Source: an uncultured bacterium (lineage in GTDB: Bacteria; Bacteroidota; Bacteroidia; Chitinophagales; CAIODY01). From it: 57,365 nt of DNA. The position numbers were made by a program, and so were the translations under genes. Shown here in pieces: positions 604 to 41,636 of this stretch. The stretch's first letter is position 1, and every line of letters begins with the position of its first letter. The stretch spans positions 1 to 57,365 of the forward strand of contig CAIODY010000021.1 of assembly GCA_903857255.1 (NCBI GenBank), read 5' to 3'. A model generated the notes under the pieces. That model was not told the origin of the DNA and did not search any database. It worked only from the letters and a program-made list of their open reading frames with translations.

Positions 604-1170
604 TCAAAACAAAATCCTTTCAACTGTCCAATACAAAGCCACACAAGCAATTAAACTTGAAATTGGATAAACAATTTTGGTGTAGTAAAAATCTTTTTTA
701 CCAAACCATTTTGCAATTGAAAAATAAACAGCAATTATCACCGTGATTTGCGCCAGCTCAACACCTACATTAAATGAAAGCAAAGAAGCTAAAAAATGTT
801 CGGGCGGCAAACCCACGTCCTTTAATGCGTTGGCGAAACCCATTCCGTGAATTAATCCAAAAATAAAAATGATTAACAAGCGCCAAGAATTGACTTTATG
901 GTGAAATAAATTTTCGATGGAAGCAACCAAAATCGAAATAGCTATAATCGGTTCGATGATTTTCGGATTGGGTAAAATATATCCAGCAGCTGTTAAACCA
1001 AGCGTTACAGAATGTGCCACGGTAAAAACTGAACACTGAATAAGTACTGATTTCAAATTTGAATTCAGAAAGAAAATACTCAAAATGAAAAGTATATGGT
1101 CGAAGCCAAGTGGAATAACATGAGCAAATCCGATTTGTAAATATTGCTTTACCACTTCAATCATTTCCAT
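604..1170 (-). CDS. HupE/UreJ-family membrane protein
   Basis: Polytopic inner-membrane protein of 188 residues with about six hydrophobic helices. The histidine-bearing signatures of the HupE/UreJ_2 family are present: GFDHILFI (residues 22-29), FTVAHS (about 49-54), GLIHGMGFA (about 104-112) and FNVGVELAQ (about 133-141). Characterised HupE/UreJ proteins are nickel permeases linked to hydrogenase or urease, but this subfamily is mostly uncharacterised and no hydrogenase or urease gene is near. It is the last gene of the co-directional run of secreted proteins, 4 bp after the DUF1566 gene, so it is probably co-transcribed. A metal-transport role is inference from family and context. Confidence 0.8.
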   Translation of the reverse strand: MEMIEVVKQYLQIGFAHVIPLGFDHILFILSIFFLNSNLKSVLIQCSVFTVAHSVTLGLTAAGYILPNPKIIEPIIAISILVASIENLFHHKVNSWRLLIIFIFGLIHGMGFANALKDVGLPPEHFLASLLSFNVGVELAQITVIIAVYFSIAKWFGKKDFYYTKIVYPISSLIACVALYWTVERILF

Positions 1171-1174
1171 TCCA

Positions 1175-2395
1175 TTATTGTTTCACAAATTTAGCAATGC
1201 TTGAAAAGCCTTTGGTGTCAGTAGTTCTAACAAAATAGATTCCTGAAATCAAGTTTTCAGTATTCAGTTTGCAGTAATCAGTGTTTTGAAAATAAATAGG
1301 TAAATCAATTTTTTTGCCTTGCATATTCATCACCTCAATTGTTTTTATACTGCCCACTGACAACTTAATACTGATGACTGAATTTACTGGATTTGGATAA
1401 ACTTTCATTTTTATTGCATCATCCACCAAACTATTGATTCCACTTACCTTTGGTGTTGCAGTTCTCACACACATGATATAACAACCTCTTGTTGTTTTTG
1501 AAATGTAAGATGTCAGACCGAAATTTTGAAAATCAATAAACCATGCATTAGTTCCATGATTGAATTGCGAAGTAGATGACCAATATTTTTTTGCAACTAC
1601 ATTCGGAAACGCTGAAATATTGATGGATGGTGCATTTGCTTTTTCATCGTTGAGTGATTCTATCTCTTTGATGTTGGGTAAGCGCCAATCTGAATAACCT
1701 GCTAAGGTTAGATTTTCTGCATGTTGCAAAGCGTTGTCCCAAAACAAAGAATCATTGTAAGGAAATTTCTCCCACATCAATCCAGTTAAATTATCGGTGA
1801 TTGTGCTATCACCATTATCGGTAAAATGATTGGGGATTATTGTTGGAGTTGTTACATCTCTCACAGCTCGTGTATGAAAACTTTTGGTGCCACCTGCGCT
1901 GATAGTTTCTGTTTTTGGATGAGCGCCTTGTCCGCCACCAGCATTGGTTACCCAAATTTTTGAAGGGAAATTATAAGCCGTATCATTCGCCCACCAATAT
2001 TCTGCATTGGTGTTTGGAAAATAAGTAGTGTTGATAGCTGGGTTCAACGCATCTAAAATTAAAATGCTGAAACCCTCATGAACACTGGGTAATCGCCAAT
2101 CATGATGTCCTGCTAAATTTAATTGTTGCACATATTTTTTAGCGCTGTCAATCGTCATTTCGCCGCCATCAGTTTTTTGCCACATCAATCCAGTAACAGT
2201 ATCTGTGATTGTTCCATCACCATTATCGATATAGAAAGGTGGATTGATGGTGTAATCATTATCTTCTCCAAACGTAGTGGTGTAGCTGCTTGTCTGGCCA
2301 GAATCCGGAATTCGATTCATGGTTTTCTTCACACTTTGTGCAAATGAAATTTTCACAAAACACATAATGAAGACAACTACAATTAAACTTTTCAT
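1175..2395 (-). CDS. Secreted DUF1566 (Lcl C-terminal-like) protein with T9SS sorting domain
   Basis: A signal peptide (about residues 1-19, ending SFAQ) is followed by two DUF1566 repeats. Each opens with DNGD-TITD and TGLMW, then an AG-(H/Y)-DWRLP segment, an aromatic YW and a final R(A/T) (roughly residues 56-180 and 190-312). The last ~75 residues are a T9SS type A sorting domain: YPNP at about 332, a central IEV strand, then SGIYFV and FSSIAKFVKQ. DUF1566 has a C-type-lectin-like fold; the ligand is unknown. The sorting-domain part contains two 7-bp tandem repeats. It lies between the YHYH and HupE genes in the same apparent operon. The product should be exported across the outer membrane and displayed or released. 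Confidence 0.82.
   Translation of the reverse strand: MKSLIVVVFIMCFVKISFAQSVKKTMNRIPDSGQTSSYTTTFGEDNDYTINPPFYIDNGDGTITDTVTGLMWQKTDGGEMTIDSAKKYVQQLNLAGHHDWRLPSVHEGFSILILDALNPAINTTYFPNTNAEYWWANDTAYNFPSKIWVTNAGGGQGAHPKTETISAGGTKSFHTRAVRDVTTPTIIPNHFTDNGDSTITDNLTGLMWEKFPYNDSLFWDNALQHAENLTLAGYSDWRLPNIKEIESLNDEKANAPSINISAFPNVVAKKYWSSTSQFNHGTNAWFIDFQNFGLTSYISKTTRGCYIMCVRTATPKVSGINSLVDDAIKMKVYPNPVNSVISIKLSVGSIKTIEVMNMQGKKIDLPIYFQNTDYCKLNTENLISGIYFVRTTDTKGFSSIAKFVKQ
1248..1282. repeat. 7-bp tandem repeat inside a T9SS sorting-domain coding region
   Basis: Five consecutive 7-base units on the coding (minus) strand share the pattern ACTGNNN (for example ACTGATT, ACTGCAA, ACTGAAT; the last is ACTTGAT). 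The block encodes part of the sorting domain between the central strand and the SGIYFV strand (TDYCKLNTENL). Because 7 is not a multiple of 3, the unit is read in all three frames, giving a seven-residue peptide period. Confidence 0.7.
1346..1380. repeat. 7-bp tandem repeat inside a T9SS sorting-domain coding region
   Basis: Five 7-base units on the coding strand have the pattern CAGTNNN (CAGTCAT, CAGTATT, the diverged AAGTTGT, CAGTGGG, CAGTATA). They encode the strand between YPNP and TIEV of the sorting domain. A similar array sits at the homologous position of the neighbouring YHYH gene (2645-2679). Confidence 0.7.
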
Positions 2396-2474
2396 GTTGA
2401 ATTTTTTTCTTGAAAAATACTTTCTAATATTCTTTAAAAACTTTACAAAACTTGAAAAACTTTATGAACTAATT

Positions 2475-4097
2475 TTATTCTTTCACAAATTTTGAAACAC
2501 TTGAAACCCCTTTGCTGTCAATGACTTTAACGAAGTAAACACCACTTGTCAAATTTGAAACATCCACTGAAATTGGTTGAGTTGTTGAATTGTTGATTGG
2601 TTGAGTGAATACATTTTTACCAAAAACATCAAACACTTCAATTGTATTCACTAATGACAAATGACTTATGACTAATGACTTCCCACAAGGATTCGGGTAA
2701 ATCGTCAATCCATTTTCATTCGTTTGCAATTCATTAATCCCATTCGGCGTTGCAGGAACAGTGCATTGTACAAAGCCATGTTTGGTTTCAGATGAATCTA
2801 AATTGCCAGCGGTGTAATATTTAAAAGTATAGTTGCCCAAGGCATCCCAAGAATAAACAACAGAATCTGTATTGCTTTGATAAGTATAAATCATCTTGTA
2901 ACCATTGCCCGTTGCATTCGGATTGCAAACAGTAATCAAAGCTCCATTTAATGGATTCTGACCTGCACGAACTGGATGTGCAGCGGCTTGTGGAACCAAT
3001 TGATGCGTATTGTCTTCCGTTACATTTCCAGCCATGTTGCCTATCATGTAAGGATAAGTTGTGGTGCCATGATAATGATAAGTGCCACCATAACTATGTC
3101 CGTGATTAGCATCCAAAGTTTGCATGTTTGTTCCATCTGGCTCAACACTTCCGTACACTGCAAAACCGTCTAATGCATACGCAATCGGCAGTGTAGCTGA
3201 TGTGTAAGCATACAAATGCAAAGGTGCAATGTGATAATGATAATCATCGCCTCTACCGCAGTGACCACCATAAGTATCTAATTGTCCTGCTGTTAAAGCA
3301 TCAGCGCCAGTGTTGGTGTGTTCGTTGAAAATCGGAACACCATTCACTGCAATCGCAATGGCACCTCTTGTAAAATGCACTGCATCAACAGGAATCGGAT
3401 TTGCTGCCATTGTTGGTTTCAAAGGAATAGGCCAGGCATTGGTTCCCATATAACATTGCGGAATAGGCACCTGACGTTGCCAGCCGCTGTTTGAAATACC
3501 AGCCATCATGGGGTGTGTAGTTGGAATTCCTTTTGATTCCACCCAGAAATAAGTAGTGTCATAAAACGTATGAACATTTGGAACGAAAGGTGCAAAGGCT
3601 GCATTAATCGTATTTGGATTGGTGCTTTGTAATGATTTCAAAGTGAAACTGAACAACGCAAAACATAAACCCATAACAAACACAGGCATAGCATATTTGT
3701 ATTGAGGCTTCTTAGAAATACTAAAAACAAAAATGCCAAACAGCAAAAAGAAAATAGCTACAATGAAAAATTTATAATCAAAAACAGAATGCGATTTCAT
3801 CACCACATTTTGATGTTGTAGTAACTCCCGATTCAATGCCAAAATTTTATTTTCTTTTTCAATAGCGAATTGTTTATCGGCTGCGGATAAGTTTTGCAGA
3901 GGAAAAGAAACAATTTTCTGCTCTGTGGTTTCAATGAAAACTTTTCCATCTTTCAGCATATAAAAACTGCCGTCAATGGTTTTGTTTTCTTTTTCAATTT
4001 TCCACTGATGCGGAATTACTTTTTCATAATTCAAATCGTGTGCTTGTGAAAAATTCACACCGCAGAAAAGAAGCAGTAGGCAGATTATTTTTTTCAT
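2475..4097 (-). CDS. YHYH-domain protein with N-terminal SHD1-like region, two TM helices and T9SS sorting domain
   Basis: Signal peptide (residues 1-19) followed by an SHD1-like segment (about 30-80: GSFYMLKDGKVFIE ... LSAADKQFA), then two hydrophobic helices (about 108-127 and 135-153). A YHYH domain spans about 190-390 with the two signature clusters DDYHYHIAPLH and GTYHYHGTTTYPY, GGHCGRG between them and further His residues. It ends in a T9SS sorting domain (IYPNP ... SGVYFVKV ... SVSKFVKE). YHYH proteins are uncharacterised; the clustered histidines suggest metal binding (inference). Having both internal TM helices and a sorting domain is odd: either the helices are cleaved off or the protein is not a simple T9SS substrate. 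It lies 13 bp after the phosphoesterase pair in the same transcription direction. Confidence 0.8.
   Translation of the reverse strand: MKKIICLLLLFCGVNFSQAHDLNYEKVIPHQWKIEKENKTIDGSFYMLKDGKVFIETTEQKIVSFPLQNLSAADKQFAIEKENKILALNRELLQHQNVVMKSHSVFDYKFFIVAIFFLLFGIFVFSISKKPQYKYAMPVFVMGLCFALFSFTLKSLQSTNPNTINAAFAPFVPNVHTFYDTTYFWVESKGIPTTHPMMAGISNSGWQRQVPIPQCYMGTNAWPIPLKPTMAANPIPVDAVHFTRGAIAIAVNGVPIFNEHTNTGADALTAGQLDTYGGHCGRGDDYHYHIAPLHLYAYTSATLPIAYALDGFAVYGSVEPDGTNMQTLDANHGHSYGGTYHYHGTTTYPYMIGNMAGNVTEDNTHQLVPQAAAHPVRAGQNPLNGALITVCNPNATGNGYKMIYTYQSNTDSVVYSWDALGNYTFKYYTAGNLDSSETKHGFVQCTVPATPNGINELQTNENGLTIYPNPCGKSLVISHLSLVNTIEVFDVFGKNVFTQPINNSTTQPISVDVSNLTSGVYFVKVIDSKGVSSVSKFVKE
2575..2606. repeat. 8-bp tandem repeat inside a T9SS sorting-domain coding region
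   Basis: Four contiguous 8-base units on the plus strand with consensus (G/T)GTTGANT: GGTTGAGT, TGTTGAAT, TGTTGATT, GGTTGAGT. On the coding strand they give the peptide TQPINNSTTQPIS before the final strands of the YHYH protein's sorting domain. The position corresponds to the 1248-1282 array of the next gene. Confidence 0.7.
2645..2679. repeat. 7-bp tandem repeat inside a T9SS sorting-domain coding region
   Basis: Five 7-base units on the plus strand with consensus NNATGAC: TAATGAC, AAATGAC, TTATGAC, TAATGAC, plus the diverged outer unit TATTCAC. The coding strand reads LVISHLSLVN, directly before the TIEV strand, at the same place as the 1346-1380 array. Confidence 0.75.
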
Positions 4098-4110
4098 AAT
4101 GATTCAATTT

Positions 4111-5829
4111 TTATTTTATCAAAACTATTTTCCCTGATTTATTTTCTCCGTTTTTATTTTTCAAAACATACCAGTAAGTACCATTGCTCACATCGGTCTG
4201 ATTGAAATTCTTTCCATCCCACATCATTTGAAATTTCCCGCTGTTCAGGGTTTCATTATCCATTAAGCGGCGCACTAATTTTCCATTGACATCTATAATA
4301 TCTAAAGTAACAGCATCAGGATTTTTTAAAGTGAATTCAATTTTTGTTTGTTGCTGAAATGGATTCGGATACACCACTTCATCAGCATAATTGCTATTCC
4401 AAATCATTGGCGAACCTGTATTCAGCGAATCGTAACAATTTTTTGCATTGATAAAATAGGTAGCCACCACATCGCCATTATGCTGTGTGCCTGTCTGCTG
4501 GCTGGCTTTGTAGGCTTTAACATATTCTACCTTCACTCGTTGCGAAGTTACTGTAACACGAAGATGCCCTGTGTTAGCCAATATCAAACCTTGCAGATAG
4601 CCATATTGTGCAGCTTGACTGGGGTAATTGAAATTAGGTAAACTGGGCTGAGGTGTTTCCTGATAAATCATGCAATCTTTTTGTTGTTGCCCGAAGAAAT
4701 GGTCGTGCCCATGAAAGAAAATATTCACTTTGTTATCGGTCAAAACATCTTTAATGGGTTTTGCCCAACCCGGTCTGTTCGTTGACCAGCCTGGGGTTCC
4801 ATCCAGATTATTACCGCCCCATTCATATTTATCAGCATACTCCACACCGCCTCTGCCTTGTGGGTCGCCACCTACTAATTGATGGGCGAAAACAAATTTG
4901 TATTTAGCTGTGCTGTTTTGCAAAGTTTGTGTAAGCCAGTCGTATTGCTGCTTTCCGAGCGACCAATACCAACCATGCAGCGAATCAGGTTTGGGTTTGG
5001 TATTCCAAAATGGGTCAATCACCACAAACATGGCATCACCCCATTGCCAAGCGTAGTATGATTCACGAGCACCTACAAATGGTGTGTTGGATGTATCACC
5101 TGTATAAAATGAATTTGGAAAAGGATTGGGGAAATATTTTTTTCGTTGCTGTGCATCCCATACCGCAATGTTGTTAGCAGTTCCGTTATTATACCAACCT
5201 TCTTCGCCTTCATGATTGCCCAAAGCAATAAATAATGGCATCGAATGGCAAACATATTCATACTTCGAGCGTAATAAATTACAACGATAAGGAATGGTAT
5301 CGAAAGGCACCACGTGTGAGGCATTCAGCAATTTATCCGTCATTAAAAAATCACCCAAATCAATCATAAAATCGGGATGGTCTTTTAGTTGATTTTGCAA
5401 ACAAACTCTGTACAAAGCGGTATCGCTGGAAGCATCCATGTGTGGGTCGGCTTGAATTACAAACACAAAGGAATCGTTAGTTGGGCGAAGCGTATGAAAT
5501 GTATGTTCAGGGCGGTTTGTAACACTGCCACCGCCACTTGGATGACGATAATTTACTCGATAGAAATATTCAGTGTTAGGTGTTAAACCAGTGAGAACAA
5601 TTTCGGCAGTAACACTATCTGCAAAAGTTTGCCAGTTGGTTTGATTGCTATAAACACCGCTTGCAGTGCCATATTGCACACGTACTTGAGCCGAGTCGGA
5701 AAAAATTAATTGCACCGTAATGCTGTTGTCCATTGGTCGTCCTAAGATTTCAGAACGCCAAAGATGTTGGGCATTTGAAATTTTATTCCACACTAAAAAA
5801 ATCAGGAACAGAAAAAAAATACGCTTCAT
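4111..5829 (-). CDS. Secreted purple-acid-phosphatase-like metallophosphoesterase with T9SS sorting domain
   Basis: Signal peptide (1-20), an N-terminal fibronectin-III-like PAP domain (about 25-112, ending in EYFYRVNYRH and EHTFHT), then a calcineurin-like phosphoesterase domain with all metal motifs: QADPHMD (DxH), DLGDF (GD), LGNHEGE (GNHE), FAHQ and FFHGHDH (GHDH). The C-terminus is a T9SS type A domain (VYPNPFQQQ ... SNGTYWYVLKN ... KIVLIK). It should hydrolyse phosphate esters outside the cell with a dinuclear metal centre (family knowledge); the substrate is unknown. It lies 24 bp downstream of a paralogue with the same architecture, a tandem duplication within the secreted-protein operon. 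Confidence 0.87.
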   Translation of the reverse strand: MKRIFFLFLIFLVWNKISNAQHLWRSEILGRPMDNSITVQLIFSDSAQVRVQYGTASGVYSNQTNWQTFADSVTAEIVLTGLTPNTEYFYRVNYRHPSGGGSVTNRPEHTFHTLRPTNDSFVFVIQADPHMDASSDTALYRVCLQNQLKDHPDFMIDLGDFLMTDKLLNASHVVPFDTIPYRCNLLRSKYEYVCHSMPLFIALGNHEGEEGWYNNGTANNIAVWDAQQRKKYFPNPFPNSFYTGDTSNTPFVGARESYYAWQWGDAMFVVIDPFWNTKPKPDSLHGWYWSLGKQQYDWLTQTLQNSTAKYKFVFAHQLVGGDPQGRGGVEYADKYEWGGNNLDGTPGWSTNRPGWAKPIKDVLTDNKVNIFFHGHDHFFGQQQKDCMIYQETPQPSLPNFNYPSQAAQYGYLQGLILANTGHLRVTVTSQRVKVEYVKAYKASQQTGTQHNGDVVATYFINAKNCYDSLNTGSPMIWNSNYADEVVYPNPFQQQTKIEFTLKNPDAVTLDIIDVNGKLVRRLMDNETLNSGKFQMMWDGKNFNQTDVSNGTYWYVLKNKNGENKSGKIVLIK

Positions 5830-5853
5830 AAAATTGTTTTTTTGAAAAATAAA

Positions 5854-7545
5854 TTAATGATTGATGACTACTTTTTTTATGACTGTTCCTTGATGTTCTG
5901 TTTCAATATTCAAGAAATAAATTCCGTTTGGAATTGTACTTACATCCATCAAAGCCGCATTGGCTGTGGTGTTAGTGTTTTGGGTTAAAACTGTTTTACC
6001 CAGCACATCATTCAATTTTAAATTATAAACACTCACTGAACCATCCAAAATTTCTACCATCAATTTGTCATTGGCAGGATTTGGAAAAATGTTGGCCGAT
6101 GAGTTGGCTAATAAACTTTTAATGCCATTTGGTTGAATAGTGCATGTTCCAATAGTATAGCTAAAAGCCACAGTGCCATTATGATGCAAGCCCGATAAGG
6201 TATCTTTTGGTAAATAAGATTGCACATAATCTACTTGCACACATGATGATGAAACGGTTACCCGAATATAGCCAGAGCCTGCAATGGTATCGGCTGTATA
6301 AGCACTTGCATTTGCTAACATACCTTTTTGATAAGTAGAATCGGCTGCCATTGGCACTTCTTGATACACTACACTATCCAAAATTTCATGGGCAAACAAA
6401 TGGTCATGCCCTTGAAATAAAATTTGAACACCATAGGTTCTGAACAATTGCTGTACTGGCATAGCCCAACCAGGGCGGTTTGTATTAAAGGTGTAATGAT
6501 TTTGAGTGCCTTGGTTTCCTCCCCATTCATATTCTTTTGCAGGAATAATTCCACCTCGGTTTTCTCCAAGTGGATGATGAATAAATGCAAATTTGAATTT
6601 CGCAGTGCTGTTTTGCAATGTGTTTTTTAACCAAGTATATTGCGGTAAACCCAGCGTCCAAGCCCATCCGTTAGGTTTTGGATTAGTATCACAATCAAAA
6701 CGATAAGCATCTAACACCACAAACAAAGCATCGCCCCAAGTGTAAGCATAATAATCTTGCGGCAGGCCTATTCCAAAACCTTCTGCAGTATTATTGCCCG
6801 AATAAAAACCATTAGGTTCGGGGTTTGGGTAATAAACTTTTCTTGATAAAGTGGACCAAACTGCTAAATTATTGGGTGGCATGGTATCTAAATAATATTG
6901 CTTTTCGCCATCATGATTTCCCAAACAAACATTTAAAGGCACTGAATGGCAGATGGCTCCTAATCGTGGCCTGTAAAGGTATCTAAGCGAATCAACTTGG
7001 CGTTGAGTAATGGTAAATGGATAATGGTCATCGCCAAAAATATCTCCTAAGGTGAACATGAAATCAGGATTGTCATTCAATTCATTTTGCAGCGTAATGG
7101 TGTATAGATGCGGATTTCCATAATCATACAAATGTTCATCTGCTTCAACAGTAAAAGTAAAAGTGCTTCCTGAAGCACGTTGCGTATGAAAGGTGTATTC
7201 AGGCGTTGGAGTAAAATTGCCACCCGATGTTTTGTACTGTACTCGATAAAAGTATTTTGTATTTGCTACTAAACCTTGCAAATCAATCTCAAATGGTTTT
7301 TTCGCAACACTGGTAAATGTTGTTGTTTGATTTGGGTAAGAACCAGTAGTAGTGCCATATTCCACATAATATTGCATCACCTGCCCAAACATTATACTGG
7401 CAGTTATAGAGGTATCAGTTGGTCGGCCCAAAATAATATTGGGTGTTTGAGCATTTGCATTTTTATTGGTGAAAAATAAAATTGCAAATAAAATTGCCGT
7501 AGTAATTATTCTCTTGAAATGCAGCGGTGTAGAATGTTTCATCAT
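5854..7545 (-). CDS. Secreted purple-acid-phosphatase-like metallophosphoesterase with T9SS sorting domain (paralogue)
   Basis: Same architecture as the next gene: signal peptide (about 1-32, ending NANAQ), PAP-type fibronectin-III domain (about 35-125), calcineurin-like domain with VEADEHLYD, TLGDIFGDD, LGNHDGEK, FIHHPLGE and FQGHDHLFA, and a T9SS domain (IFPNPANDKL ... IPNGIYFLNIETE ... KKVVINH). The DxH motif reads DEH here against DPH in the paralogue. The protein loops differ a lot, so the duplication is old and the two probably differ in substrate preference (inference). It starts 4 bp after the periplasmic sensor gene, which ties the enzymes to the ECF sigma module. Confidence 0.87.
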   Translation of the reverse strand: MMKHSTPLHFKRIITTAILFAILFFTNKNANAQTPNIILGRPTDTSITASIMFGQVMQYYVEYGTTTGSYPNQTTTFTSVAKKPFEIDLQGLVANTKYFYRVQYKTSGGNFTPTPEYTFHTQRASGSTFTFTVEADEHLYDYGNPHLYTITLQNELNDNPDFMFTLGDIFGDDHYPFTITQRQVDSLRYLYRPRLGAICHSVPLNVCLGNHDGEKQYYLDTMPPNNLAVWSTLSRKVYYPNPEPNGFYSGNNTAEGFGIGLPQDYYAYTWGDALFVVLDAYRFDCDTNPKPNGWAWTLGLPQYTWLKNTLQNSTAKFKFAFIHHPLGENRGGIIPAKEYEWGGNQGTQNHYTFNTNRPGWAMPVQQLFRTYGVQILFQGHDHLFAHEILDSVVYQEVPMAADSTYQKGMLANASAYTADTIAGSGYIRVTVSSSCVQVDYVQSYLPKDTLSGLHHNGTVAFSYTIGTCTIQPNGIKSLLANSSANIFPNPANDKLMVEILDGSVSVYNLKLNDVLGKTVLTQNTNTTANAALMDVSTIPNGIYFLNIETEHQGTVIKKVVINH

Positions 7546-7549
7546 TTAT

Positions 7550-8071
7550 TTAATTGTTGTTGTTGAAATTTTCTTTTTGTTTGGGTTGATTATCGGGTCG
7601 GAAATAGTCGCGTATTTCTTTTACTAAATTTTCAAACTTTTCTAATTGTTCAGCAGTGCAAATGGCTTTCAAATCCTTTGCTTGAGCCCATCGCAGCAAC
7701 TCCATTTGTTCTTCATTCATCGCAATTTCATGTGCTAAATGCTTCACCAATTCATCATTAGTTGATTGATTGAACATGGAAATATTCATCGAATCCTTTT
7801 CGTCACGAATTGTTTTTGCCAACAGTTTTTCTTTTTCAAAATAATTCAATCTAATTTGCTCAATTTGTTCAGTTTGCTTGTCAGTCAAATTTAATTCACT
7901 TTTCAAAATACCCGAAACATCATGGTATTGCTCGATTTTTGGAAATAATTCGGGTTCATGATTTTGATGCCTGAATTCTTTCCAAGCAAATAATCCGATT
8001 GCCATCACATTCAAAATGGCTAAAGCAATTACCGAACGAAACAATAATTTCTTTTGAGAAAAAATATCCAT
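7550..8071 (-). CDS. Periplasmic heavy-metal-sensor-like (CnrX/ZraP/Spy-type) membrane-anchored protein
   Basis: 173 residues with one N-terminal membrane helix (about 12-30) and a mostly helical, charged periplasmic domain. The LNLTDKQTEQIEQIRLNYFEKEK stretch (about 60-82) and a second helix pair with LARTI-like and MNEEQMELLR segments are typical of the heavy-metal resistance/CnrX/Spy-CpxP group, followed by an Asn-rich tail. Proteins of this type sense metals or envelope stress, sometimes with an ECF sigma/anti-sigma pair (CnrX with CnrY and CnrH). Here it lies 2 bp after a small single-pass protein that follows an ECF sigma gene, so a CnrYXH-like arrangement is a reasonable inference. The metal is unknown. 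Confidence 0.72.
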   Translation of the reverse strand: MDIFSQKKLLFRSVIALAILNVMAIGLFAWKEFRHQNHEPELFPKIEQYHDVSGILKSELNLTDKQTEQIEQIRLNYFEKEKLLAKTIRDEKDSMNISMFNQSTNDELVKHLAHEIAMNEEQMELLRWAQAKDLKAICTAEQLEKFENLVKEIRDYFRPDNQPKQKENFNNNN

Positions 8072-8073
8072 GA

Positions 8074-8379
8074 TTAATTGTTTGAAAGGTTTTCGTTAAT
8101 CATCAACTCGTGCTGAATGGCTTTCAGTTTTTCATTTCTTGACAAATATTTTTCGGATGATTTAATCATCGTTTCATAAACAAACAATGAATTGATGGCA
8201 ATCAACAAAACTATGCCCAAAGCCAACTTTGAGCTAACAAGTGAATTGTTTGAATGGCGATTTTTGGCATTCAGTTTTTGTAACAATGTTGCATTCCAAG
8301 TGTTATCCAATGAAACATTAGCATTGGCAAAAGCATCTAAAGTTTGCTGCACTTTACTATTTAATTCTTGCGTTTCCAT
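8074..8379 (-). CDS. Small single-pass membrane protein, probable anti-sigma factor
   Basis: 101 residues: a soluble N-terminus of about 48 residues (QQTLDAFANANVSLDNTWNA), one hydrophobic helix (about 49-68, LALGIVLLIAINSLFVY) and a short charged outer part. There is no zinc-binding HxxxCxxC motif, so it is not a ZAS-type anti-sigma factor. The size, topology and place between an ECF sigma gene (55 bp upstream) and a periplasmic sensor (2 bp downstream) resemble CnrY-type anti-sigma factors. The function is inferred from context only. Confidence 0.55.
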   Translation of the reverse strand: METQELNSKVQQTLDAFANANVSLDNTWNATLLQKLNAKNRHSNNSLVSSKLALGIVLLIAINSLFVYETMIKSSEKYLSRNEKLKAIQHELMINENLSNN

Positions 8380-8434
8380 TTTCTATATTTTAATTTAGAC
8401 GATGATTGATTTTATTTCTGGCACTTTGTTCAAA

Positions 8435-8998
8435 TTATTTTTTCAAAATCATTTCTAGTTCGTGGCTCACTTTCTTTTTTGCTCTGTAAATCAATGATTC
8501 TACTGCAACCGTTGTGGTGTTCATTATCGCTGCGATTTCAGGATTGGAGTAACCTTCGATTTTACTCAATGTAAAAGCTATCCGTTGGTTATCGGGCAAC
8601 TGATTTAAAGCAGCTTCAATTGCTTTCCACTTTTCTTTTTGTTGTAGTTCTTTATCAGGCGAAGTTTCGCCAACTAACCAATGGGCAATTTCATCCAGAT
8701 GCAAAATTTTGCCTAAGGATGTAATGCGTTTTTTACGATTTCGTTTTTTGATTTCATCCAAACATTTTGTAACCGCAATTCTATAAATCCAAGTAGATAA
8801 TTTTGAATCGCCCCGAAATTTTTTAACGGATTCATAAACCTCTATAAACACTTCCTGTGTCAGGTCTTCCGCTTCTTCTTTGTTCAATAAAAATTTGTAG
8901 CAGGTATTAAAAACTTGATTGGAATACAGATTTACCAATTCCGTAAAAGCAGCTCTATCAGCTGCCTTCAATTGAATTAATAAATCATTATCGGGCAT
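8435..8998 (-). CDS. RNA polymerase ECF-type sigma-70 factor
   Basis: 187 residues with sigma region 2 (about 25-90: LNKEEAEDLTQEVFIEVYES, then FRGDSKLSTWIYRIAVTKC) and region 4 (about 125-180: LPDNQRIAFTLSKIEGYSNP, EIAAIMNTTTVAVESLIYRA). Regions 1 and 3 are absent, as in ECF sigma factors. It directs RNA polymerase to a small regulon when its anti-sigma factor is inactivated. The next genes are a putative membrane anti-sigma factor and a periplasmic sensor, so it probably controls this locus. A perfect inverted repeat lies just upstream (9012-9031). Confidence 0.92.
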   Translation of the reverse strand: MPDNDLLIQLKAADRAAFTELVNLYSNQVFNTCYKFLLNKEEAEDLTQEVFIEVYESVKKFRGDSKLSTWIYRIAVTKCLDEIKKRNRKKRITSLGKILHLDEIAHWLVGETSPDKELQQKEKWKAIEAALNQLPDNQRIAFTLSKIEGYSNPEIAAIMNTTTVAVESLIYRAKKKVSHELEMILKK

Positions 8999-9011
8999 CG
9001 GGTAAAAAAGG

Positions 9012-9031
9012 TTTTGCGTAAGAACGCAAAA
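9012..9031. promoter_or_regulatory. Perfect 8-bp inverted repeat upstream of the sigma factor (operator or terminator)
   Basis: TTTTGCGT at 9012-9019 and its exact reverse complement ACGCAAAA at 9024-9031 are separated by 4 bases, in the 63-bp gap between the thioredoxin-like gene and the ECF sigma gene. On the minus strand the hairpin is followed after two C's by a run of six T's, so it may be an intrinsic terminator or attenuator for the upstream genes. Equally it could be a binding site that controls the sigma gene. The sequence alone does not decide. Confidence 0.5.
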
Positions 9032-9061
9032 GTGCAGGAAAGTTTAAAGCAACTGGAAGCT

Positions 9062-9670
9062 TTATTTCCTGTAAAAAATCGCACAACCAAATGATTGTGT
9101 TTCAGGCATTTTTACGGGCTTGCCATGCAGCAAATCATCAACAGCATTGGCAATGTAAGGATTTGCTTTTTCTGGATGTTCACCGTTGTCATCAATTGCG
9201 CCACTATATTTTATTACCCATTGATTATTTTCTTTCCAAATCACAAAAGCATGTGGCGTATGTTCGGCTTTGAAATCTTTTCCAACAGTTTGCATGCAAT
9301 CGTATAAATAAGGGAAGTTGAAATTATCATGCTGGGCTTTGTTTTTCATCAACTCAAAACTTTCTTCTTCATATACTAATGTATCCATTGAATTGATAGC
9401 AAGAAATGGAACTCCTTTCGCTATATACTTTGAATTCAAATCATTAAAACGTTTGGAATATAATTTTGCAAACGGACAATGATTGCATGTAAACACCACG
9501 ATAAATCCTTTTGCATCTGCAAAATCATGGAGCGAAACCATTTTACTATCTACATTTTTTAATGCAAAATCATGCACTACATTGCCAACTAATGTCGTTG
9601 GTTTGGATGGCTTGAAAGCCACAACTGATAAGAGAACTAAAGCGATGCAAATGGATTGAAATAGTTTCAT
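9062..9670 (-). CDS. Secreted thioredoxin-family (redoxin) protein
   Basis: Signal peptide (about 1-20), then an AhpC/TSA-like thioredoxin fold: DFALKNVDSKMVSLHDFADA, the VFTCNHCPFAK motif giving a CNHC active site (CxxC followed by P), NSMD in the third strand and a TPHAFVI cis-proline-type segment. The C-terminal TQSFGCAI cysteine is also typical of this Bacteroidetes redoxin family. It should act in the periplasm as a disulfide reductase or peroxiredoxin-like protein; the partner is unknown. It starts directly after the stop of the arylsulfotransferase-like gene and could keep the cysteines or copper of the secreted multicopper oxidase reduced (inference). Confidence 0.82.
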   Translation of the reverse strand: MKLFQSICIALVLLSVVAFKPSKPTTLVGNVVHDFALKNVDSKMVSLHDFADAKGFIVVFTCNHCPFAKLYSKRFNDLNSKYIAKGVPFLAINSMDTLVYEEESFELMKNKAQHDNFNFPYLYDCMQTVGKDFKAEHTPHAFVIWKENNQWVIKYSGAIDDNGEHPEKANPYIANAVDDLLHGKPVKMPETQSFGCAIFYRK

Positions 9671-11335
9671 TTATTCTTTGATGATTTTTTTTGTTTCGTT
9701 TCCTGCTTGGATAAAATAAATTCCGTTGGGCAAATTTTCAACATTGATGGTTGCTGATTTTTTAGTGCCTGAAAAAACTTGGTCGCTTTGAAAAACAACC
9801 CGACCTAATACATCCGTCATCACAATTTTATGATTCGTTGAATTGTCGAATAGTTGAATGGTAAAGGTTTGGTTGCTGGGGTTAGGAAAAATGTCAAACA
9901 CTTTTTGGGTGTTATCGAATGCTGCAACGCCCGAATTTAGTGTGTCGCAAATGCCTGGCGATAGTGGATTTATCTCAATTGGTTTGCTGGCAATTAAACT
10001 ATGCCCTGTGAAGCCGGCAAAATTTGGCTCGAACAAGGTGCATCTGAAACAACCTAATGTGGTGCTTGTTGTGCCTTGTGCAATTGCACCTGTTGAACCC
10101 ACAGGGTTGATGTATTGCCACACCGTATTCTTATTAGAATCTATTTCGAAAAAATTGCCCGATGTTGCTTCGCAAATAATGGTGTTGCCATTTGATAAGC
10201 GTTGTGCACCGCCCATTACAGGAGTAAAAAATGAGGATGGGGGATTGGCGCTATAACTCCAGTATGCGGCTGATGGTGCAAATGGATTAGTGCCAGTTGG
10301 AAAAGTATAGTCGCCGTTGGCATCAACGGGTTGAGCAATAATATCTACTGAAGCGCTATTACCACCTGAGCGACCAACACCGTTGTTGAAAATCATGATA
10401 TTGCCAGCATCTTTATATCCTGCAGGTATCCATGTTGGATTGTGTTGTTGAAAAAGTTTTTGGTCAGTTGATATACCATGATTATATGCTTGTGGATTTC
10501 CCCAACGATACAAAAAGTCGCCACCTTTATTGTGATTGCCTCCTGCATGCATTGCTGCTTGCGCTGTTGTAGTGCTGTGGTCGATGATATAAATCTCACT
10601 GAGATTATGTGAGCTAATCATGATTTGGTCTAATGTTGGGTTGTAAGTAACGGCATTCACATGCAACCAATCTACACTGGTCGCGGTGTTGGATCCATTG
10701 AAATTTAAGTTGAGTAATTCAGAATGATTAGCCACCACTCCATAATTCGATTTAGTGTTGTCGAAATCCTGAATTAAATGGTCCCAAAATTTCCATTGCC
10801 AAACAATAGTTGCGTTGCTGGTGCCCGATGGTTGCAATTCATAAATTTCTGCACTCCAAAGCGAAGTACCCAATAGCGAAGGGTTTCTGCCTGCTGCAAT
10901 AGCAACTGTGGGTTTTATGTTTACCCAAACCACCACTAAAATATTGCCATTAGGCATTGGATAAATATCGTGGTTTTGAGTATGGAGTGAATCTGAAATT
11001 CGATAACTCCAAACCAAATTGTTGTTCCAATCAATCTTCTCAATTAAGCCACCAGTTGCACCGTTGCTATTGAAATTAGGGTTCGGAATTGCACCAGTTT
11101 TCAACAAACTTCCATCTGATAAAAGATAGGAGGAAAGCCCTGGTTTTCTTGCGCTTGACCATTGATGAACTTTCTTGCCGCATTTGTCAATTAAATAAGT
11201 AGTATCGTTTGATACTGGCGAAAACAAAACATAACCATCCAAATTACTTGATTTGTATTGCATCAGTCCAACGGTTTGCTGCGCTTGCGCTTGAAGGGCA
11301 ATTAAGAAAATTGAAAAGAGAAATGTTATTTTCAT
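9671..11335 (-). CDS. Arylsulfotransferase (ASST)-like secreted protein with T9SS sorting domain
   Basis: Signal peptide (1-18), then a beta-propeller-like region with ASST-family features: repeated W-rich strands (IDWNNNLVWSYRI), HTQNHDIYPMPNGNILVV, DWLHVNAVTYNP, ISSHNLSEIYIIDH, FLYRWGNPQAYNHG and QHNPTWIP. ASST enzymes transfer sulfate between phenolic compounds; the DWLHVNA and NHG histidines match conserved positions, but the catalytic histidine cannot be assigned with certainty. The T9SS domain is IFPNPSNQT ... LPNGIYFIQAG ... KKIIKE. It starts 9 bp after the multicopper oxidase stop. It contains an 8-bp tandem repeat at 9828-9859. Confidence 0.78.
   Translation of the reverse strand: MKITFLFSIFLIALQAQAQQTVGLMQYKSSNLDGYVLFSPVSNDTTYLIDKCGKKVHQWSSARKPGLSSYLLSDGSLLKTGAIPNPNFNSNGATGGLIEKIDWNNNLVWSYRISDSLHTQNHDIYPMPNGNILVVVWVNIKPTVAIAAGRNPSLLGTSLWSAEIYELQPSGTSNATIVWQWKFWDHLIQDFDNTKSNYGVVANHSELLNLNFNGSNTATSVDWLHVNAVTYNPTLDQIMISSHNLSEIYIIDHSTTTAQAAMHAGGNHNKGGDFLYRWGNPQAYNHGISTDQKLFQQHNPTWIPAGYKDAGNIMIFNNGVGRSGGNSASVDIIAQPVDANGDYTFPTGTNPFAPSAAYWSYSANPPSSFFTPVMGGAQRLSNGNTIICEATSGNFFEIDSNKNTVWQYINPVGSTGAIAQGTTSTTLGCFRCTLFEPNFAGFTGHSLIASKPIEINPLSPGICDTLNSGVAAFDNTQKVFDIFPNPSNQTFTIQLFDNSTNHKIVMTDVLGRVVFQSDQVFSGTKKSATINVENLPNGIYFIQAGNETKKIIKE
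9828..9859. repeat. 8-bp tandem repeat inside a T9SS sorting-domain coding region
   Basis: Four 8-base units on the plus strand share the pattern NGTYGAAT (CGTTGAAT, TGTCGAAT, AGTTGAAT; the outermost unit TTATGATT is diverged). On the coding strand they encode IQLFDNSTNHK between the FPNP motif and the next strand, the same location in the domain as the arrays at 1346-1380 and 2645-2679. The motif GTTGAAT is shared with the array at 2575-2606. Confidence 0.6.
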
Positions 11336-11344
11336 AATGTTGTT

Positions 11345-13063
11345 TTATTCTTTTACAAATTTTTTGGTGGTAATTGATTTAGTATTTTTATCCATCAGCT
11401 GAACAAAATAAATTCCTTTTGCCAAGCTCGAAACATCAATGCCCTTCGGTATTTCAGGTTGAGGTAGCATCATCACTGTTCTGCCAATAGAATTGATAAC
11501 GGTGATGTAATACACTTCATTATTCAATTCATTGAATTGCACATAAACCCTTGCTGTGGCAGGATTTGGGAATAAATTATAATCCAGTTCGTGTTTTGAA
11601 ACATTTTCAATGCCGCTGCTATTGCTGAAATCTTTTACAACAAATTGCCCCATCATACCACCATCTTCGTGCGATGTAAAATGGCAATGATACATGTATG
11701 GATGTATTGTATCAGAGTAGTCATTAAATTTTGCAACAAAAGAAACTGTTTCGCTTTTTGGCACATACATCACATCTTTCCATCCGCTTTCATAAGCGCC
11801 AACACCAGCAGCAGAGCCATTTCGGGCAACAATTTTAAATTGGATGTCGTGAATATGAAAGGCATGACCGAATACATTGTTGTTCTTCACCGTCCATTCC
11901 TCAATATTATTAAATGGAATTGTTTTGTTGATGTAATTCAAAACAAATGGTGTTGAATCTAACGAAAATGGCTTTCCGCCTGGGTTTCCTTCGGTTACAT
12001 CAATTCTGCGTTGCACAGTAGCATCAGCAGCAGTCCAATAAACATTATGCGCAAGTGTTGCAGGCACTGCTGTGATTGGGTTTGCGGTTGCAGCAGCAAC
12101 ATTAATATGCAGAACAGGAAAATCAATGTTGTTTAACAAACTTCCAAATTGTCCACTGGTGGCTGGTTCACCACCCGGAAAACCAAATGCTTGACCAGAG
12201 TTGTATGCTTTTAAATCAACCGCTGAACCAATGGCATCATTGCTTAAATCAACCATGATTTCAATTCGTTCACCTACCAATAATTTAACTCGAGTAACAG
12301 CAACAGGCGCATTCAGCAAACCACCATCATTAGCAATAATATAAAATGTGCGATTGTCGCTAAATCCAAGATTGTAGCCTCTTTCAATCTCTGCATTTAA
12401 AATTCTTAATCGCACATATTGTTTCGGCAAACTCACTTGTGCGCTGGGTGTGCCGTTGGTAAGCATATAATCGCCATACACCGAATTGGTGTACACAATT
12501 TGATTGCTACCATCAAATCGGCGGCTGGTTAAAACCAAGGGAACATCATCCACCCCATAAGTTCGTGGTAGTGCTAAAGTTGATTCCAATGAATCGCGGA
12601 TGATGATAAATCCACCAATTCCTTTGGCAATTTCCATCGTTGTTTTTTCATGTAAATGCGGATGATACCACAAAGTGCTGGCTGGATTATTCACTGTCCA
12701 GTAGGGTTGCCAAAGCACTCCTGGCGGAATAGTTTGATGAGGTCCACCATCCATCACAGCAGGTAAATGCATGCCATGCCAATGAATAGTGATGGTGTCG
12801 TTGAATTTATTTTTCAGATTAATATGCACCAAATCTCCTTTCTTCATGATTAATGTTGGTCCCCAGAAATCAGCATTGATGCCACCTGTAACCGTTTGTT
12901 GCCCCGAAAGAATTTGTTTTAGCGTATCTTTTACAGTTAAGTTAAAAGTCGTTCCAGATAATGTGTCTGGAATCCAAAGCTGATTGTAGGTTTGAGCCGA
13001 ACTGCTTTTTACTAAAAACGAAAATAAGAAAACGATAGCGATAAAACGGAAAGTTTGCTGCAT
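11345..13063 (-). CDS. Secreted multicopper oxidase with T9SS sorting domain
   Basis: Signal peptide (1-23) and three cupredoxin domains. All copper ligand motifs are present: HWHGMH (about 97-102), WYHPHLHE (about 136-143), HAFHIHD (about 405-411) and YHCHFTSHEDGGMM (about 462-475), with the type 1 Cys and an axial Met. Multicopper oxidases (laccase/CueO/CotA type) oxidise phenols, Cu(I), Fe(II) or Mn(II) with reduction of O2. The sorting domain (LFPNPATARVYV ... LAKGIYFVQLMDK ... TKKFVKE) should place it at the cell surface. It is the first gene of the eleven-gene run; no clear -7 box was seen in the 179-bp divergent gap upstream. Confidence 0.9.
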   Translation of the reverse strand: MQQTFRFIAIVFLFSFLVKSSSAQTYNQLWIPDTLSGTTFNLTVKDTLKQILSGQQTVTGGINADFWGPTLIMKKGDLVHINLKNKFNDTITIHWHGMHLPAVMDGGPHQTIPPGVLWQPYWTVNNPASTLWYHPHLHEKTTMEIAKGIGGFIIIRDSLESTLALPRTYGVDDVPLVLTSRRFDGSNQIVYTNSVYGDYMLTNGTPSAQVSLPKQYVRLRILNAEIERGYNLGFSDNRTFYIIANDGGLLNAPVAVTRVKLLVGERIEIMVDLSNDAIGSAVDLKAYNSGQAFGFPGGEPATSGQFGSLLNNIDFPVLHINVAAATANPITAVPATLAHNVYWTAADATVQRRIDVTEGNPGGKPFSLDSTPFVLNYINKTIPFNNIEEWTVKNNNVFGHAFHIHDIQFKIVARNGSAAGVGAYESGWKDVMYVPKSETVSFVAKFNDYSDTIHPYMYHCHFTSHEDGGMMGQFVVKDFSNSSGIENVSKHELDYNLFPNPATARVYVQFNELNNEVYYITVINSIGRTVMMLPQPEIPKGIDVSSLAKGIYFVQLMDKNTKSITTKKFVKE

Positions 13064-22429: not shown

Positions 22430-22987
22430 TTATTTATGGTCTGGAACACTGATTGTAGCAGGTGCTTTTTCTGGAGCAGTTGTAGCAGGTGCTTTTTCAA
22501 CTGTACCATTAATCATCAACACAACAGATGGTGTTTTTGCGTTTGAAGTAACTGTGATTGATTTTGTAAATGCACCAGGACGACCTTGTGTATTGTAAAT
22601 CGCAGTAACTTTTGAAGTTTTACCAGGCAAAATTGGTTCTTTAGGCCATTCAGGTGTTGTGCAACCACATGATGCTTGAACATTTGATAAAATCAAAGGT
22701 TCTTTACCTTCATTCGTGAAATCGAAATCGAATTTTGCTTGAGGACCTTCAGGCACGGTTCCAAAATCGTGTTTTTCGATTTTGAATTTCAATACTGGTG
22801 CATTTGGGTTGTCAGCAGGTTGTGCAGGCGCAGCTTGAACTGGTGCAGCAACTGCTTGAGCGGCAGGCGCAGCAACAGGTGCGGCAGCTTGTTTCATAGC
22901 CGCAGGAGCAGCTTTTACATTTTTGTCTTGAGCAAAAGTAGTCATCATACTTCCACTTGCTAATAATACTAAAAATAGCTTTTTCAT
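22430..22987 (-). CDS. DUF1573 secreted protein, Ala/Pro-rich variant
   Basis: Signal peptide (1-19), an Ala/Pro-rich linker of about 45 residues, then a DUF1573 domain (about 68-165): HDFGTVPEGP, FTNEGKEPLILSNVQASCGC, WPKEPILPGKTSKV, YNTQGRPGAFTKSITV. DUF1573 is an immunoglobulin-like fold widespread in Bacteroidetes envelopes; its function is unknown. The CGC pair is conserved. It is a close paralogue of the gene 59 bp upstream; the linker here is an expansion not found there. Confidence 0.85.
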   Translation of the reverse strand: MKKLFLVLLASGSMMTTFAQDKNVKAAPAAMKQAAAPVAAPAAQAVAAPVQAAPAQPADNPNAPVLKFKIEKHDFGTVPEGPQAKFDFDFTNEGKEPLILSNVQASCGCTTPEWPKEPILPGKTSKVTAIYNTQGRPGAFTKSITVTSNAKTPSVVLMINGTVEKAPATTAPEKAPATISVPDHK

Positions 22988-23045
22988 GATTTTTGTTTTG
23001 TTTTTTGAATGTTTAAAAATATAAAGATTTAATTGGTTTGCAAAT

Positions 23046-23561
23046 TTAATTTTTCATCGGCAATTCGTTCATAATATTCGGGGCTTTTTCTGGCGATGAA
23101 TTCGTTGGTGCTTTTTCAACCATTCCTTTTATCAAAATAATTTTATCGCCTGATTTTGCATTTGATTTTATGGTGATTGATTTTGTGAAATTCCCACCTC
23201 GTCCTTTTGTATTATACACTGCTGTTATTTTACTTTTTGCACCAGGCTGAATTGGTTCTTTAGGCCAAACTGGTGTTGTGCAACCGCAGCTGGCATGTAC
23301 ATCAGTCAATATCAACGGTTCTTTTCCAGTGTTTGTAAATTCAAAATCAAACTTTGCTTCTGGTCCTTCGGGAATCGTTCCAAAATCGTGTTGGTCAGTT
23401 TCAAATTTAAAATCAGCTGCATTATTATTGTTAGAAGTTGATACAATTTTTACTTCCGATTTGGAAATATTAATGGGTTGAGTTGGCTTATTGTTTTGTG
23501 TTTGAGCAAAAGCAACCGCACCAATCAAAATAATATTTAGTATTAAAAAACTTCTTTTCAT
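23046..23561 (-). CDS. DUF1573 secreted protein (paralogue)
   Basis: Signal peptide (1-19), a short Thr/Asn-rich linker and a DUF1573 domain: HDFGTIPEGP, FTNTGKEPLILTDVHASCGC, WPKEPIQPGAKSKI, YNTKGRGGNFTKSITI. It is strikingly similar to the downstream copy over the domain but has a different, shorter linker, so the tandem copies arose by duplication. A -7 box on the minus strand (TAATTTTG, 23624-23617) and a 7-bp inverted repeat (ATTGGCA at 23583-23589, TGCCAAT at 23597-23603) lie in its upstream region. Confidence 0.83.
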   Translation of the reverse strand: MKRSFLILNIILIGAVAFAQTQNNKPTQPINISKSEVKIVSTSNNNNAADFKFETDQHDFGTIPEGPEAKFDFEFTNTGKEPLILTDVHASCGCTTPVWPKEPIQPGAKSKITAVYNTKGRGGNFTKSITIKSNAKSGDKIILIKGMVEKAPTNSSPEKAPNIMNELPMKN

Positions 23562-40363: not shown

Positions 40364-41636
40364 TTATTCGTATAATTTGAAACTTTTCATGTAATTATTC
40401 ACTTCATTTTTTACAGCTAATAAAACACTTTCATTTTCTGAATTCATAATGACTTTATCAATGCAATCAGCAATGAATTGCATATCGTTTTCTTTCAAAC
40501 TTCTTGTTGTAATGGCTGGAACACCAATACGGACGCCACTTGTAACGAAAGCAGTTTTATCATCAAACGGCACCATGTTTTTATTGGTAGTGATGTCAGC
40601 CTTTTGCAAAGCCACTTCTGCTTTTTTTGCCGCTGATGTTTTTATTTCGCAAATCAATCAACATTAAATGATTGTCGGTACCACCACTAATGATGTTGTA
40701 ATCTTTCGCCATAAAACATTTTGAAAGTGCTTGTGCGTTGGCAATAATTTGGCGGCAATATTCTGTAAATTCATCCGTCAAACATTCGCCAAAAGCAATT
40801 GCTTTTCCTGCAATCACATGTTCTAACGGGCCACCTTGCGTACCAGGAAACACAGCACTATCAATGATTGCGCTCATCATTCGCACTTCACCTTTCGGCG
40901 TTGTTAAACCAAATGGATTTTCAAAATCTTTACCCATCATAATCACACCGCCTCTTGGTCCTCTTAAAGTTTTGTGTGTAGTTGATGTTACAAAATGACA
41001 ATGTTGAATTGGCGAAGTCAAAAATCCTTTTGCAATCAATGCCGCAGGATGTGCAATATCAGCCATGAGCAATGCGCCAACTTTATCAGCAATTTCACGG
41101 AAACGTTTGAAATCCCAATCGCGGCTGTATGCCGATGCGCCAGTGATAATTAATTTTGGTTTTTCTCTCATCGCCGTTTCTTCCACTTTATTCAAATCAA
41201 TTCTGCCAGTTTCTTTTTCAACACCATAGAAACTTGTTTGATACAATTTACCCGAAAAGTTCACAGGAGAGCCATGCGTCAAGTGTCCGCCATGATTCAA
41301 ATCCAATCCTAAAATTTTATCGCCGGGTTTGATGATGCAACTCATCAAGGCTGCATTGGCTTGTGCACCGCTATGGGGCTGCACATTGGCATATTCAGCA
41401 CCAAATAATTCTTTCAATCGGTCAATGGCTAATTGTTCTACTTGGTCAACCACTTCACAACCACCATAATATCTTTTACCTGGATAACCTTCGGCGTATT
41501 TATTTGTCAAGCAGCTTCCCATGGCATCCATCACTTGTTGTGATGTGAAATTTTCGGAAGCAATCAATTCCAATCCTTCGCGTTGACGATGTAATTCTTT
41601 TTCGATTAAATTAAAAATGGCGGTATCACGTTTCAT
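40364..41636 (-). CDS. glyA: Serine hydroxymethyltransferase, frame broken by one extra A
   Basis: Interconverts serine and glycine, feeding one-carbon units to tetrahydrofolate. The first frame (41636 to about 40630) carries [59 protein letters not shown] (PLP lysine) and [20 protein letters not shown], then runs out of frame. The second frame resumes at [16 protein letters not shown] and runs to the normal C-terminus at 40364. The break is in an A7 run (about 40625-40632); six A's restore the frame. A sequencing error is most likely, but a true mutation or slippage cannot be excluded. Length with repair is about 424 residues, normal. A -7 box TATATTTG (41667-41660) precedes it. Confidence 0.9.

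Follow-up and report, generated by a model that had tools for sequence, protein, structure and literature searches.

What kind of function could keep together, in a single row of genes, an extracytoplasmic function (ECF) sigma factor with a putative periplasmic sensor, two secreted phosphoesterases, a YHYH protein, a HupE/UreJ-2 permease and a multicopper oxidase (MCO)? The question is raised by contig CAIODY010000021.1 of an uncultured Bacteroidota bacterium (Chitinophagales, assembly GCA_903857255.1), analysed here as one window, the whole stretch of 57,365 nt. Eleven co-oriented open reading frames (ORFs) occupy positions 604-13063 of its minus strand, to which all coordinates of the locus refer. 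In gene order, from MCO to HupE, they are separated by 9, 0, 63, 55, 2, 4, 24, 13, 79 and 4 bp. Families were assigned by Pfam and NCBIfam searches. The first-pass annotation of this DNA had given the same number of genes, the same single direction and the same gap sizes, and the ORF list agrees with it in every detail.

The answer comes in degrees. The locus consists of a conserved core and of an accessory MCO-ASST-redoxin block, the block being common to its genus. We have little doubt that the locus belongs to a conserved, sigma-linked envelope module. That it handles a metal is probable. As a whole, the description that we prefer, a modular Bacteroidota cell-envelope locus for metal handling, with copper as the most likely metal, has about even chances of being right, and copper in particular is a tentative choice that falls a little short of even.

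A conserved core and an accessory block

An alignment of MPE1, one of the two phosphoesterases, was scanned over 84,980 genomes. The 80 best loci were taken, among which L055 is the contig of L036; the loci fetched besides that of the window number 79. Locus frequencies are biased, because the loci were picked by MPE1 similarity. The core MPE2-MPE1-YHYH-LclC-HupE recurs in about 80 Bacteroidota loci, most of them at an MPE1 identity of 55-70%, and adjacent core genes are co-directional in 262 pairs out of 262, with a median gap of 8 bp. The hosts are mostly lake or freshwater metagenome-assembled genomes (MAGs), the cultured ones being Flavobacterium aciduliphilum DSM 25663 and F. luteum; a few MAG labels (Methylobacter, Nitrotoga) probably reflect contamination. 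Conservation of the neighbourhood across Bacteroidetes, which had been proposed as a check, is thus established for the core. A chance neighbourhood of unrelated genes for secreted proteins could appeal to ASST and MCO, neither of which is tied to the core; it is already refuted for the core by the order kept in all these loci, and we consider it extremely improbable.

Among the 44 loci with sufficient flank, MPE2 was found in 44, YHYH in 40, LclC in 39, HupE in 23, SigH in 15 and SpyX in 13. A cassette of sigma factor, anti-sigma factor and Spy-fold sensor lies upstream of the core in about a third of the loci, and the MPE2-MPE1 tandem, the most constant part, often follows it directly. Two genomes of the same family have the uninterrupted run sigma-anti-Spy-MPE2-MPE1-YHYH-HupE-LclC; in another family, MPE2 and MPE1 are divergent from sigma-anti-Spy-YHYH-LclC-HupE. 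A search based on YHYH also gave free-standing YHYH genes (L041, L043). The searchable open literature gave us no published account of the locus, of its gene combination, or of YHYH with HupE.

The idea that the eleven genes make up one fixed system did not survive this comparison: MCO, redoxin and ASST are accessory. Counts of accessory genes in annotated loci were 18 for sulfatase, 13 for redoxin, 9 for MCO, 8 for TlpA and 5 for ASST. The MCO (11345-13063; Cu-oxidase_3/_2) is a CueO/SufI-type three-domain enzyme with a tail of type A for the type IX secretion system (T9SS); its copper-ligand His and Cys columns are invariant in 11 homologues and CueO-type ligand motifs are present. The ASST-like protein of the arylsulfotransferase family (9671-11335; Arylsulfotrans, 64.7 bits), T9SS-tailed as well, accompanies the core in 5 of about 80 loci. 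It had been considered as a core gene and was rejected, its homologues lying mostly outside such loci in a neighbourhood search started from ASST. The redoxin (9062-9670) is a secreted AhpC/TSA-Redoxin thiol protein with an invariant C62-x-H64-C65. Between its gene and that of the sigma factor, a hairpin followed by a T-run (9012-9031), of a pattern not more frequent than in shuffled sequences, is a possible terminator which might separate the MCO-ASST-redoxin block from the sigma operon.

Two observations on variation within the locus deserve mention. A family that we call GSVTQ (e.g. L070, 13365-14597), T9SS-tailed, about 410 residues long, with invariant C41 and C83, many D, E and W residues, and no Pfam match except the sorting domain, is present in 36 loci, mostly between YHYH and LclC, and absent from the window. 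Divergence within the genus is mosaic. Compared with L036 (G002), the stretch MPE2-SpyX-AntiY (window 5600-8380) is about 50-75% identical and the flank from sigma to MCO 82-100%; compared with L035 (G001), the MCO (window 11350-13063) is 55-76% identical and ASST 88-100%. This suggests that the sensor block and the MCO were exchanged, or that the MAGs are chimeric.

The Por_Secre_tail domain scores above the Pfam cut-off in MCO, ASST, MPE2, MPE1, YHYH and LclC (34.6-56.1 bits against 27), in keeping with the six sorting domains announced by the first-pass annotation, and the genome encodes the T9SS translocon protein SprA. Since each of the six ends in a sorting domain and the genome encodes a T9SS, they count as T9SS type A cargo, the export of which is predicted. 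MPE2 (5854-7545), the first gene of the core, and MPE1 (4111-5829) are both secreted, T9SS-tailed calcineurin-type phosphoesterases. The ligands of MPE2 are conserved in 78 homologues, while D128, H130, D160, N205, H206, H316, H373 and H375 of MPE1 are invariant in 82. LclC (1175-2395), present in 62 loci, has two Lcl_C/DUF1566 domains (Lcl_C, 182 bits) and a T9SS tail. As far as alignments can tell, catalytic and metal-ligand columns are intact and nothing in the locus looks decayed. A sequence search of the PDB with YHYH, MPE1 and ASST yielded nothing beyond the sorting domain and a weak match to SHD1.

The joining of these phosphoesterases to a metal-sensing sigma factor had been noted earlier as unexpected. 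It is no accident, because the MPE pair is the most constant part and often stands right behind the sigma/sensor cassette; as for the sensing of a metal, we infer it. A pair so constant, with complete active sites and mostly from lake MAGs, also invites an explanation by phosphorus scavenging, in which the two enzymes would release phosphate from organic esters in phosphorus-poor fresh water while HupE and YHYH would supply metal cofactors. Indeed, Flavobacterium secretes phosphatases when phosphate is depleted (PMC8115612). Yet no phosphate transporter or SusCD gene was recurrent in the neighbourhoods (recurrent clusters were viewed by eye, not all being domain-scanned), no Spy-fold/ECF relay is known to sense phosphate, and MCO, redoxin and a sister module with MbnP-MbnH, described below, would be left unexplained. 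Phosphorus scavenging seems to us unlikely.

The sigma cassette and a putative promoter motif

SigH (8435-8998; Sigma70_r2 and r4_2, TIGR02937) is an ECF sigma factor. AntiY (8074-8379), a protein of 101 residues with one hydrophobic stretch as its single transmembrane (TM) segment, matches no Pfam or NCBIfam family; its place is that of CnrY, weakly conserved homologues occupy the same slot, and it is a putative short anti-sigma factor. SpyX (7550-8071) is a TM-anchored periplasmic protein of the Spy/CnrX fold, and the putative sensor. Its family scores are marginal (LTXXQ 25.4 bits against a cut-off of 24.3; Metal_resist 25.5 against 29.2). The AlphaFold2 (AF2) model (pLDDT 81, pTM 0.57) consists of a TM helix and helical hairpins, and Foldseek matches it to CnrX, CpxP, ZraP and Spy with probability about 1 and E-values of 0.1-0.7. 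SpyX is CnrX-like in fold, and it may sense a metal.

What it would respond to is a delicate matter. A nickel site of the CnrX type was rejected, as no His column is conserved. A Cu(I) site made of Met95, Met99, Met123 and Cys138 was also considered; Met95 and Met99 are not invariant. CnrX binds nickel or cobalt through His residues and Met123; a Met of SpyX lies at what looks like a similar place. The Spy2 sensors of MbnP modules, unlike SpyX, mostly retain His at two positions. Since SpyX has no conserved His, its cue could be Cu(I) bound through Met and Cys, redox, or protein damage. The metal-sensing sigma/sensor pair put forward earlier therefore keeps its CnrX/CpxP/ZraP-like fold and its linkage to sigma, and loses the His ligands that would have pointed to a metal.

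Protein damage would make the locus part of a general envelope-stress regulon, where SpyX, like CpxP or Spy, would sense misfolded or oxidized envelope proteins and SigH would drive surface proteins. The fold matches, which include CpxP and Spy besides CnrX, go in this direction, as do the missing His and the presence in Flavobacterium of the promoter motif discussed below ahead of LTXXQ-type and anti-sigma genes. The core, however, has no gene for a protease, chaperone or isomerase, and neither a HupE permease nor a YHYH protein starting with His is a stress effector, which makes this explanation quite unlikely.

A new two-part motif, TTAAAC(C)-N17-GTCWW, precedes MPE2: 30 of 43 upstream regions score at least 10/11 at fixed spacing, against 0.4 expected from shuffles, mostly 24-50 bp ahead of the start codon. 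It looks like an ECF promoter, which the sigma factor of the cassette would read. It also occurs before MPE2 in loci without a sigma gene in the cluster, so that a sigma factor from elsewhere must serve there. Before MPE1, YHYH, LclC and MCO no motif rose above chance, nor did scans for sigma-70 promoters and terminators give anything above shuffles. In the window, TTAAAC-N17-TTCTTA (9019-9047) stands directly ahead of the ATG of sigH, the only match without mismatch to the own-genus motif (p about 0.009 by shuffling); it is kept in G001 and, with C at the first -10 base, in G002. The -10 element TTCTTA departs from GTCWW at its first base and overlaps the hairpin with its T-run, which is why we call this promoter no more than likely. 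Genome-wide pattern searches placed the own-genus motif ahead of two sigma genes, sigH and that of the sister module, and also ahead of a Rieske-type gene and of a gene for an outer-membrane-type protein; control counts show some of the matches to be due to chance. The Rieske-type gene carries the motif in two congeners (L188, 1564-1974; L190, 1042-1461), where it lies beside a T9SS-tailed CxxxCH protein.

Probable metal handling and the tentative choice of copper

The YHYH protein (2475-4097) combines a signal peptide, His20, an SHD1-like domain (fold match to 2hbp, probability 1.00, 46 columns), a hairpin of two TM segments, the YHYH domain and a T9SS tail. In 56 of 57 homologues His20 comes directly after the predicted signal-peptide cut, the residue at -1 being A, S, C or G in all 56; the other secreted proteins of the locus, by contrast, have Q after A at that place. 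The two TM segments are found in 55 of the 57 homologues and the T9SS tail in 50. The YHYH domain has invariant His residues at H195, H279, H287, H289, H334, H341 and H343. That one protein should unite a signal peptide, a TM hairpin and a sorting domain, as it does in about 50 homologues, is unusual and hard to reconcile with export by the T9SS.

The permease (604-1170; PF13795, 149 bits against 24.5) is the only HupE/UreJ-2 copy in the genome. Its motif H17-x2-P-x-G-x-D24-H25 is one residue longer than HPxxGxDH, and H17, D24, H25, H53 and H108 are invariant in 37 homologues. HupE/UreJ members studied so far transport nickel or cobalt, the metals sensed by CnrYXH (PMC7689651), and DUF4198, a protein with an N-terminal His, prefers nickel (PMC12537917). 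The same architecture might accordingly serve nickel or cobalt uptake or homeostasis. Against this stand the MCO and MbnP-MbnH associations, which favour copper, the missing CnrX-type His ligands of SpyX, and the neighbourhoods, where no urease, hydrogenase or B12 family was recurrent (again among clusters viewed by eye, not all domain-scanned). We find nickel or cobalt very unlikely.

The case for copper comes mainly, and by association, from a sister module. The second and only other YHYH gene of the genome follows sigma-anti-Spy-MbnP-MbnH on contig C110 (L135, G000:C110, 9834-14730), so that both YHYH genes sit in sigma-anti-Spy cassettes. Two congeners have this arrangement too, as do members of other families, and the sister sigma gene stands behind a motif similar to the sigH promoter. 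MbnP-MbnH is not in the window locus itself; L070, L074 and L130, however, carry MbnH, MCO, sulfatase, YHYHb and redoxin in physical linkage with a window-type core, L130 having MbnP as well. We found no description of the sister module as a sigma-controlled copper module. MbnP is related to CorA and MopE. These are surface Cu(I)-binding proteins, the genes of which are co-transcribed with that of a di-haem cytochrome (PMC3912023). On this, the main evidence, copper is a plausible choice.

A metal or redox role had been suggested at first sight, and it is upheld by the N-terminal His of YHYH, the HupE/UreJ-2 motif, the intact MCO ligands and the MbnP-MbnH module, though not by the sensor. Several facts weigh on the other side. 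The cue of SpyX, in the homologues of which no His is conserved, in contrast with the nickel/cobalt site of CnrX, is possibly no metal ion; the HupE/UreJ members studied move nickel or cobalt; the most conserved enzymes of the locus are the phosphoesterases, not the copper proteins, MCO being found in about 10% of the loci. The TM hairpin together with the T9SS tail makes the location of YHYH ambiguous, and the window promoter is imperfect in its -10 and shares its place with a hairpin. Finally, in Flavobacterium relatives the motif stands ahead of LTXXQ/Spy-like genes and, in an operon of the sigma-anti-LTXXQ type, ahead of the anti-sigma gene, hence it is common to a broader envelope regulon and not specific to this locus.

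If metal handling is nevertheless the function, the locus could work as follows. A CnrYXH-like relay of SpyX, AntiY and SigH would read a periplasmic cue and free SigH, which would transcribe from TTAAAC-N17-GTCWW promoters its own operon, SigH-AntiY-SpyX-MPE2-MPE1-YHYH-LclC-HupE, and perhaps the sister operon with MbnP-MbnH. YHYH, cut to its N-terminal His, would chelate the metal and pass it to the HupE/UreJ-2 permease. The T9SS would bring MPE1, MPE2 and LclC to the surface, where organic esters might yield metal or phosphate through their action, while the oxidation state of copper and the redox state of thiols would be the task of the accessory MCO and redoxin. Here we infer the signal, the sigma-promoter pairing, the identity of the metal, the direction of its flow and the roles of phosphoesterases and LclC. 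In its boldest form, which we deem unlikely, the scheme becomes a phylum-wide way of acquiring metal, new to the literature: an ECF sigma regulon would build a relay across two membranes, where a His-first YHYH, tethered by its TM hairpin, would take copper freed at the surface by T9SS-exported phosphoesterases and hand it to HupE/UreJ-2, coupling phosphoester breakdown to metal capture. With or without this extension, the locus brings YHYH, the MPE pair and the stand-alone Bacteroidota HupE/UreJ-2, orphan families until now, into one system with a predicted regulator, promoter and metal ligand. If the reading is right, it would reveal a means by which lake bacteria acquire or regulate a trace metal, in a manner tied to phosphoester breakdown.

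Elsewhere in the window, nuoA (557-138), on the minus strand like HupE, begins 46 bp after it, outside the conserved block. glyA (about 40600-41636) is frameshifted close to its 3' end, the rest of the gene being readable in another frame; the cause is probably an assembly indel. A protein of 1302 residues (28684-32592) has many head repeats of the NTAIG/NVAIG type, as in trimeric adhesins, and an apparent peptidase S74-like C-terminus, and two DUF1573-like secreted proteins are encoded in tandem at 22430-23561.

Comparison with known systems

Like secreted calcineurin-type phosphatases related to purple acid phosphatases, the MPEs of the window have a PAP-N-like domain and full metallophosphoesterase motifs. 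They differ in lacking the Tyr of the purple acid phosphatase GDxxY motif (GDFLM in MPE1, GDIFG in MPE2), and in standing nearly always as an MPE2-MPE1 tandem. The closest PDB relatives of the MCO are CueO-type copper efflux oxidases, of which it keeps all the copper ligands; it differs in its T9SS tail and as an accessory gene in a non-Cue locus. With MbnP-MbnH, CorA-CorB and MopE-SACCP the likeness would be envelope copper handling; in the sister module the MbnP-MbnH pair, which the window locus itself does not have, is accompanied by a YHYH gene and by a sigma cassette of the same type.

A study of 2025 described anglerases, N-terminal-His domains which, fused to HupE/UreJ-2, bind copper and other metals (PMC12537917). 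In the window, too, a HupE/UreJ-2 permease pairs with a protein predicted to begin, once mature, with His. The genes are however separate, usually nearby, and that His is borne by an SHD1-like domain, behind which come the TM hairpin, the YHYH domain and the T9SS tail, whereas the anglerase is a beta-sandwich fused to the permease. A Rosetta-stone test found no fusion of the domain with HupE, matches to it in 395 genomes showing no frame of fusion size other than those of YHYH length. As its first domain is SHD1-like, the YHYH protein is no anglerase by descent; by analogy, it could work like one.

The closest parallel in regulation is CnrYXH of Cupriavidus metallidurans, likewise a cassette of an ECF sigma factor, a short TM protein and a TM-anchored Spy-fold sensor, the AF2 model of SpyX matching CnrX with a TM-score of 0.72 by target. 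The order in the window is H-Y-X, and its sensor has no conserved His. Where CnrYXH controls an efflux pump of the resistance-nodulation-division (RND) family, the genes predicted to be under control here encode T9SS-tailed enzymes and, besides them, a HupE permease.

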